A stretch of DNA of 64,000 nucleotides from Tubulanus polymorphus (lineage: Eukaryota > Nemertea > Palaeonemertea > Tubulaniformes > Tubulanidae). Location: contig NC_134025.1 of NCBI RefSeq assembly GCF_964204645.1, positions 911,001 to 975,000 on the forward strand, in the 5' to 3' direction. The translations under genes and the position numbers were made by a program. Positions within the stretch are counted from its first letter, which is position 1, and every line of letters begins with the position of its first letter. Below the pieces are notes generated by a model, which searched no databases, was not told the DNA's origin, and saw only the letters and a list, made by a program, of their open reading frames with translations. Positions 51,401 through 53,768 of the stretch are shown here, piece by piece.

Positions 51401-53768
51401 ATCTGTATGATTCTAAACTCGGTGAAATTTTCATCGACCAAACTCTGCCGAATCAAAAAAAATTTACTGTATAAACTAACTAGAAATTAACAGTGTTTTT
51501 ATTTCTTTAGAGGAATATGAAAGAGTTGAAAAGGAGAAATGTAACTGTCCGACTCCGTGCGATCGCACTCTGTACGCCCCGAATCTCTCGTACGGTACAA
51601 CATCCAGTTTCGACACACAACTCTTCCTGAGACAAGTCGATACCGCCGCTTTAGAGGAACGATTCATCAACGCCAGGGAATCCATGAACCGACGCTTACC
51701 AGAATTCATTCAACTCGATAAAACCCTCATTACATCGTTTACGTCATCGGTTACTACTGTTAGATACGTCATAATGACGTCACTGGCAGGGGTCATCAAT
51801 AAAATCGAACACGATTTGATTGAATTGACGAATACGACCAATCGTATCTACGCGTTACAGAGACACGCTTTAACTCGTATGGGTTGGAGTTTCGAGCAGT
51901 ATTTCTATAGCGGAGTGGAAGTGAGATACTCGGAAACGATCGCTCAAGTTGCGCCCGGTTATTCTACGATGTTCGAGACTTTCGAAACGCGATTGAACGA
52001 ACTGTTAACATTTAACGACACGGCCTATCGTAAAGTATTTCACGGTGTCGTCACGCATGACATGTTAGCCAGGAAAGTACTGGCGGAGAAAGCCGATGTA
52101 GCTTTGAAGACGATCTACAACGCTTACAAATTCATGCAGCCTTTGAATACTAATGTCTCGAGTAGCGAGTCGTACGAGGCAGATTCAGCAGCTTTTCCCA
52201 CTTATTACATCAACGAAGATTTCACCGCGTTAACCACCAGACACCAAATAACACTGACCGATTTAGAGAATTTCAAATCGAGCGTCGAGCAACTGATGGC
52301 CATAGCTGACGAGTGTCAGAATAGCCGTACGATGAACACTACATTGTATAACAGCGCTAAGGTCGGATATATCGGCAACGCGAAGACTTTTATCATCGAT
52401 ATCGATAAACTGAAGAATTCCCATTACAGCAGACCTCAACCGATCCTCATTCAACTGATGTTAGACCTAGACTCGGCTAAAGATGAAGTTTTAACGCAGA
52501 TTAGAGACATGCAAGTTACCGTAAACATTCTAAAAAACGATCTCAATAGAATTCAAACCGAAACGTGGCCTTCGATCGAAACCGTTTCGAATTTAACGGC
52601 TTCTTATTTGACGAATCCTAACGTGAAGAAAACTCACGTCGCAAAACGAGTAACATCTCTAGAGTTGGAAGATAAAGTCGCCGAATTATCGGCGTTCATC
52701 ACTTCATTGAAGACGCGGTCGCAGTCTACTGATGACAATTGGAACAAACTGTCCTACCAGTATAAACAGTTCTGGGATACGATCCTAGGGGTCGCTGCTT
52801 TGAATCCGTACCACACGTATAAAGGTAACACGGCGATCACCGGGACTACAGTATCGGCGAAGAATTCCGAAATAACCGATCAATTCTCCAGATTAGCCGC
52901 TACTCACGATATACGCGGTTCTATCGGCGGCAACGATGAAACTTTAAAAACGGCTTTGGCCGCGTTGAAAAAATCGTACGCTCAGTTCTTGAAGGAAAAT
53001 ACTATCGACGCTACATTCGTCAAGTAAGTAGAAGGATAACCCTGTTCACTCACACGTGGGGAAGAGATAACATGATTAAAACCCGTACAAATTCAAAAGA
53101 CGATAATCTCTGAGGAGAGTCTGAAATGTCATGTTTCTTTTTCTTGATAAATAAATGTCGTTTTTAATCTTTTGAATTTTCATATAACGGGTTTTGATCG
53201 TGATCGTCAAGTTGTTTTCCCTTTTACAATGCTTTTTGTTTAGTGTTGATAGTGATCCAGAAACCATTTTGAGGCACTTCAATTAGCTCTGCACTTTGTC
53301 CGTATGAATATGTCCTATTCTACCCATACGTACTATGCTTAAATTTCAGGGACAACTTTTTGGAAGTTGATATTTTCCAAGAAGAACTGAACGTGCAGGC
53401 AATTACCCAACAGGAAGGTTATGAAGGTCTCGCTTGTTTATGTAAGTGATGAAACCTGAATTGAGATATTATTTCTGAGATTTCGTTCAGTTTTGGCTTG
53501 CGGGTTAAAACATCGGAAACGACCTCATTTCACTCTTGATTCCAAATCTGAATCTTTTGTTATTTAATATTGTATTTTAGGTGATATAGGTGGAACTATG
53601 GGACTGTTTGCTGGAGCGAGTCTGATTACGTTCTGCGAATTATTAGACGCGTTTTTACACTACGGAGCTAAAACTTTGACTAATAAGGCAAAAGTGACCG
53701 ATAGCGTACAGAACATACAAGTTAGACCTACATTCAAGACAACAGAAAGCGTCAAAGTTTGGAGTTAG
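48451..53768 (+). CDS. ASIC-like DEG/ENaC channel with a ~440-residue extracellular insertion, 933 aa
   Basis: Exons: 48451-48599, 49157-49324, 49440-49610, 49736-49857, 50124-50305, 50737-50896, 51253-51309, 51511-53023, 53350-53441, 53581-53768; 2802 nt, all phases agree. Intron 4 uses a GC donor (G|GCAAGT). Family hallmarks: the gating His-Gly (TTFHG, 35-36), TM1 about 51-68, KFPAVTICNLNSF (93-105), the ASIC-type Cys block [21 protein letters not shown], then CNCPTPCDRTLY, and before TM2 CDIGGTMGLFAGASLITFCE with the GAS selectivity filter (about 871-900). ASIC subunits are usually 500-560 aa. The excess lies at about 395-838, within one 1.5-kb exon: helical-looking, one Cys, five N-glycosylation sequons, consistent with an extracellular location. 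The His pair of the ASIC proton sensor, just after TM1, is absent (YYYEYPVTV), so classic acid gating is doubtful. Likely a trimeric sodium channel; the ligand is unknown. Confidence 0.9.
48925..49010. repeat. dispersed repeat in intron 1, inverted partner in 3'UTR
   Basis: ATCATTTGGTACAGTCTCTA followed by GGGTGTCCTCTCAATAAAT matches, in reverse orientation, 53900-53946 (ATTTATTGAGAGGACACCCC ... CTGTACCAAATGAT) downstream of the channel stop codon. The two copies bracket nearly the whole gene. Confidence 0.75.

Follow-up and report, generated by a model that had tools for sequence, protein, structure and literature searches.

Does a channel gene of the nemertean Tubulanus polymorphus carry an additional domain of some 450 residues, and what might such a domain do? 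With a single conserved ectodomain, channels of the DEG/ENaC superfamily open in response to stimuli as different as protons, peptides and force. The gene considered here lies in a stretch of 64,000 nucleotides, the whole of which is referred to as the window; positions are those of the window unless a contig is named.

A DEG/ENaC gene with one long exon

Positions 48451 to 53768 (plus strand) were found to hold a ten-exon DEG/ENaC gene whose spliced model encodes 933 aa, with a reading frame that is uninterrupted from the ATG at 48451 to the TAG at 53766-53768. The exon lengths are, in order, 149, 168, 171, 122, 182, 160, 57, 1513, 92, and 188 nt, in agreement with a first-pass annotation of this DNA that had described one 1.5-kb exon among exons of 57 to 188 nt. 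All splice borders have AG acceptors and GT donors except at exon 4, which has a GC donor; the intron at 49858-50123 is of the GC-AG type. As the 1513 nt of exon 8 are not divisible by three, simple skipping would disrupt the frame, which rules out a normal channel made by leaving this exon out. The features of the gene are as follows.

48451..48599, plus strand: exon 1, start Met, N-terminus and HG motif (FHGWRYI) (spliced model; ASIC1/ASIC2 alignment)
49157..49324, plus strand: exon 2, TM1 and post-TM1 FPAVTICN; YPV against ASIC YPH (V for H73) (spliced model; alignment)
49440..49610, plus strand: exon 3, finger region (spliced model; alignment)
49736..49857, plus strand: exon 4, GC splice donor (spliced model)
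50124..50305, plus strand: exon 5, palm; E aligned to ASIC K211 (AETGSENGL, exon 4/5 junction) (model; alignment; PF00858 match)
50737..50896, plus strand: exon 6, cysteine-rich thumb region (spliced model; alignment; PF00858 match)
51253..51309, plus strand: exon 7, thumb, short exon (spliced model)
51511..53023, plus strand: exon 8, CNCPTPC...LSY, knuckle insert, and knuckle tail to FVK (spliced model; alignment)
51630..52973, plus strand: inserted domain, predicted helical, ~448 aa, residues ~377-824, ends ±15 aa (non-insert genes, AlphaFold helices, family alignment)
53350..53441, plus strand: exon 9, DNFLEVDIF...LAC, palm strand towards TM2 (spliced model; alignment)
53581..53768, plus strand: exon 10, TM2, GAS selectivity motif, C-terminus and stop (spliced model; alignment)

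The 933-aa model has two TM segments, an HG motif, FPAVTICN, a cysteine-rich ectodomain and a G-x-S filter in TM2, all features of DEG/ENaC channels (PF00858), and PF00858 matches cover exons 5 and 6. Using phmmer against PDB chains, ASIC2 and ASIC1 were the best matches; residues 24-364 and 824-895 align to ASIC2 (E 3.4e-69) with the middle unmatched, and FaNaC is more distant (E 1.7e-39). The channel shares the HG motif, TM1, FPAVTICN, the thumb cysteines and DIGG.MGLF.GAS with ASIC1 and ASIC2 (PDB 6l6p, 4nyk, and others) but differs from them in its ~450-aa knuckle insert and in having V and E at the proton-gating positions H73 (before beta1) and K211 (in the palm loop). Judged by its sequence, the gene is a DEG/ENaC member with ASIC as its nearest solved relative; the earlier label "ASIC-type" is too narrow in view of the two replaced residues, which are nearly fully conserved among ASICs (PMC10507113). 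The window channel may still open to protons, since TadNaC2 is activated by protons although it is without these determinants (PMC10507113). With a GAS filter and the downstream E and D present, the pore would be expected to be Na+ permeable. Elsewhere in the genome, a DEG/ENaC gene (L003; G000:C6:5898507-5902091) has both proton-gating residues (YPHSTKVD; TKPGRGNGL) and is likely the true ASIC of T. polymorphus, being a better ASIC candidate than the window gene.

The insert lies within the knuckle

The distance from LSY to FVK is ~480 aa in the window gene versus 27 aa in two DEG/ENaC genes of the same genome that have no insert (L024 and L012), giving a net insert of about 450 aa. The phmmer matches on both sides likewise bear out the initial description of ~440 extra residues flanked by ASIC-like sequence. 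The phmmer alignment puts the unmatched residues between positions ~377-381 and ~383-388 of ASIC2/ASIC1, and the tail, SYAQFLKENTIDATFVK followed across the exon border by DNFLEVDIF, aligns to ASIC SAKYL...YIGENILVLDIF, which indicates that the knuckle helix pair retains its end. From established structural knowledge, we take the ASIC stretch at the insertion point to be the knuckle. The ASIC alignment thus moves the attachment from the thumb-palm region, where it had first been placed, to the upper outer corner of the trimer. The knuckle is composed of two closely linked helices, and those of the three subunits form the upper vestibule (PMC6827283).

Both L024 (C5:2.668 Mb), which reads CDCPIACDYNQHDVRLSYARYPTEKHAQTLAEKAKLDAAYIK and then GT, and L012 (C2:0.39 Mb), which reads LSFSSFPNRHAADALQTALNLSANYVR up to the exon border, have an ordinary knuckle of ~27 residues and a splice donor at the same place as the insert genes. 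This arrangement suggests that the domain most likely arose inside a pre-existing exon, not via capture of a separate exon.

The single Cys and five N-X-S/T sequons previously counted in the insert are correct, but the five sequons compare with 5.6 expected from composition, so that they give no evidence of glycosylation in the window gene, and the deduction of a glycosylated domain from sequon number was rejected as resting on a chance-level count. Across the family, sequons are mildly enriched, with 136 observed versus about 93 expected.

A comparison can be made with Trichoplax, a non-bilaterian. Its TadNaC channels have short insertions at the same knuckle position, but these are predicted loops, as opposed to the ~450-aa helical domain of the window gene (PMC6827283). 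No description of a domain-size helical insert at the knuckle was found in the open-access literature.

At least 27 loci carry the insert

Using the exon, and then its relatives, as queries against the T. polymorphus genome, at least 27 loci were identified (a lower bound) with an insert at the same knuckle point and exons with the same flanking splice sites. The first-pass annotation knew of no family member with this layout; within this genome it recurs at 26 or more other loci. The loci are spread over seven contigs (C1, C2, C4, C6, C8, C10, and C11), with 22 outside the window's group (13 loci and a nine-gene tandem array).

Window's group, five loci: the window; C6:4.09; C6:0.543; C1:28.68; C1:26.80 Mb
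Other insert loci: C8:15.195; C10:9.998; C4:8.83; C6:9.867; C6:2.304; C6:2.334 Mb
Other insert loci: C11:7.55, 8.18, 8.65; C4:5.438, 5.445; C2:26.138; C2:1.508 Mb
Other insert loci: nine in tandem array, C6:7.109-7.174 Mb

The inserts range from roughly 300 to 470 residues, lying between the C.CP.PC...SY strand and the splice donor that follows ..F[IV][KR], and the same acceptor and donor flank the insert exon in the family members checked. None of the 26 exons of alignment A2 contains a stop codon, their open frames being about 340-540 aa. A few members (e.g., L040, L044, L046, L049, L057, and L061) have an extra intron within the insert, which continues in a second exon. For one of these, L057 (C2:1.508), the assignment rests on its position, the flanking motifs and the tail of the exon instead of on similarity of the insert, and a genome search with its second exon found no relative. 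The nine genes of the tandem array lie on both strands, and their insert exons are 60-82% identical within subgroups. Within an intron of the insert-bearing channel gene L044 (G000:C8:~15.20 Mb), and on the same strand as that gene, positions 1231-2415 of the locus (reverse strand) hold a 395-aa single-exon ORF that by eye resembles a 7TM receptor.

Homology, origin and constraint of the inserts

The inserts of the family are homologous to one another, the link between the window's group and the L048 group being transitive only. In hhalign profile comparisons homology between the main insert groups extended past the channel flanks (E 3.6e-5 over 275 columns), and the second group matched the inserts of the C11 trio with an E of 2.2e-6; reversed or heptad-block-shuffled controls (n = 15) gave an E of 0.057 or worse. 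The window's group and the C11 trio are connected only through other groups. In a tree built on channel-core columns alone, with the insert left out, 22 insert and 11 non-insert genes were separated by a single branch (support 84/84, not starred), and the insert label changed once, compared to 9.5 times in shuffles. The tree is compatible with a single origin of the insert.

Values of 0.33-0.64 for dN/dS in the insert exons of 21 close pairs indicate a translated sequence kept by purifying selection, and nothing in these pairs pointed to positive selection overall. Identity within the tandem array is 60% for the insert versus 89% for the channel core, and when the window gene is compared with the four relatives closest to it, the values are 17-27% versus 49-53%. 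An insert that sets specificity would be expected to diverge faster in this way, and so would a weakly constrained spacer.

The insert is predicted to form a long helical bundle

AlphaFold2 was run with 26 family sequences as input, modelling contiguous exon translations. The model of the window exon is all-helical (pLDDT 77.8, pTM 0.60), with long helices at 63-141, 309-367, 383-428, and 444-495, and that of a tandem-array member (L067; pLDDT 88.4, pTM 0.72) has them at 66-133, 274-326, 389-420, and 438-492. The two inserts are only 14% identical and show the same order of long helices in these models, which support the earlier view that the insert is helical. It is predicted to be a long stacked helical bundle; helices of 50-79 residues, at 1.5 A per residue, would give a rod of about 80-120 A. 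The helix order (up, distal bundle, down, up, down) suggests that both ends of the insert lie on one side, as insertion into a hairpin needs.

Foldseek against the PDB gave no match at an E of ≤0.001 for either of the two models. Matches listed by VIA for the two models (Z 9-16) included designed bundles, TTYH2, ClyA-type pore formers, talin/vinculin bundles and TorS/McpZ/PilJ sensors; these were rejected as signs of kinship, as Z values of 9-16 are within or near the common range of the tool for helical models. McpZ and TorS, present in both lists, and PilJ, present in one (Z about 9-11; McpZ aligned over ~305 residues with an rmsd of 9.8-15), are bacterial bimodular helical sensor domains with stacked long-helix bundles like those of the insert models. 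This is a fold analogy only, at the level of generic helical bundles, as these proteins are prokaryotic and without sequence relation to the insert. Profile searches against Pfam, NCBIfam and the PDB returned the ASC flank plus scattered helical or coiled-coil matches, e.g., spike HR1, and no consistent Pfam or NCBIfam family inside the insert. The scattered matches were read as composition, and none was taken to place the insert in a known domain family.

Other features of the window

A minisatellite with a period of about 20 residues (YRSGASSTDQEPVLQIRSQF) and three open frames on one strand is present at 33660-34604 (minus strand), and a coding-like array similar to it lies at 3946-4389. 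Repeated blocks of TNKLNCQCVTTLMTSFNTAACCWVLI at 22533-23033 and 25218-25931 probably belong to a repeat, either in local tandem or dispersed. Immediately 3' of the channel gene, 55625-56700 (minus strand) contains two exon-like ORFs with Gly/Ala-rich hydrophobic hairpins, without a Pfam match, which by eye recall apolipoprotein-L-like proteins. An ORF at 44813-45475 (plus strand) matches von Willebrand factor A weakly, at a level that stays under the Pfam cutoff, and a 1202-aa low-complexity open exon, Ser/Asp-rich and without a Pfam match, occupies 59428-63036 (minus strand).

What the insert may do

The insert had been proposed to be a new extracellular sensor or ligand-binding domain. That a new extracellular domain is built into a sodium channel is well supported, the insert being coding, constrained, helical as modelled, present in at least 27 genes and of no recognized family; for a sensing role we infer the following. 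In a common ancestor of the 27 or more genes, a helical domain may have been added within the knuckle helix, all of it in one exon. The subunits of the presumed trimer would then each carry a stiff, elongated helical bundle, an arm that rises from the ectodomain's upper outer corner, at the meeting point of the finger and the neighboring knuckle. Of the roles considered, the arm most likely acts as an extracellular receiver that binds a ligand, a partner protein or a matrix component, with binding or pull transmitted from the knuckle-finger contact to the thumb and on to the TM2 gate, and different paralogs might be tuned to different partners. We consider this account, with its sensing or tethering role and its coupling to the gate, to have an about even chance of being right.

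Given the known roles of this corner, an arm rooted in the knuckle would be in a good position to convey binding or force to the gate. In FaNaC1, the FMRFamide pocket is formed by finger helices and the knuckle helix of the neighboring subunit, and the outer corner has been named as a site of ion and protease effects and as a proposed site of matrix tethering (PMC11026163). The knuckle residue N511 of alpha-ENaC is important for shear-force sensing (PMC7958617), and sodium self-inhibition of ENaC is another process in which the knuckle has been implicated (PMC6827283). FaNaC (7yvb, 8on7) is thus, like the window channel, a DEG/ENaC member, one whose finger-knuckle corner receives an extracellular ligand, but its pocket is formed without an inserted domain. 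A further parallel is found in the degenerins DEG-1 and MEC-4, which have a family-specific additional extracellular element that affects gating, as the insert may, but that is far shorter and located elsewhere in the ectodomain. This extracellular regulatory domain is attributed to work by Garcia-Anoveros in 1995, as cited in PMC10148893. Counting against the receiver is that the fold searches point to no sensor, their matches being generic helical bundles.

A special case, in which the stimulus is force instead of a ligand, is that the arms fasten the channel to the extracellular matrix, the cuticle or an adjacent cell and pass force to the knuckle, as has been proposed for the knuckle N-glycans of alpha-ENaC and for degenerins. 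The long helical rod of the AlphaFold models, the shear response that depends on N511 (PMC7958617) and the mild sequon enrichment of the family would all suit a tether. However, sequons in the window gene are at chance, no matrix-binding module was recognized in the insert, and varied ligands fit 27 or more divergent paralogs at least as well as a single tethering job, which makes a purely mechanical tether rather doubtful.

It is unlikely that the bundle is a structural spacer or assembly domain, setting subunit pairing through arm contacts in a heterotrimer or shielding the channel, with no sensing. Solved structures show ASIC, ENaC and FaNaC trimers that form with no domain of this kind, and non-insert paralogs are present in the same genome; on the other side, helical bundles are generally known to mediate assembly, many coresident paralogs would need pairing rules, and the insert is highly divergent and modestly constrained (dN/dS up to 0.64).

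An artefact, such as an assembly error, a fused neighboring gene, a retained intron or a pseudo-exon, is improbable in the extreme, and nothing was found in its favor. Against it stand 27 or more loci, spread over seven contigs, that share their exon borders, have frames open for about 340-540 aa, are under purifying selection and use a splice donor also found in non-insert genes. The paralogs, the shared splice sites and dN/dS exclude a pseudo-exon as well as the separate gene or assembly error that, according to the first annotation, would overturn its reading.

Returning to the receiver arm, the wider reading is that an animal lineage evolved a large receptor family, at least 27 genes with nine in tandem, in which diversifying rod-like arms determine which stimulus is received and the signal itself comes from a conserved channel; we offer this tentatively, as possible but somewhat short of even. 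If true, these would be one-protein chemo- or mechanoreceptor channels. The insert genes suggest a DEG/ENaC family, large and apparently undescribed, whose members would have built-in arms for sensing or tethering. With a domain of ~450 residues retained at the knuckle of 27 or more paralogs, the family would amount to a natural experiment in how the finger-knuckle corner governs gating, and the insert channels may be a new receptor family.
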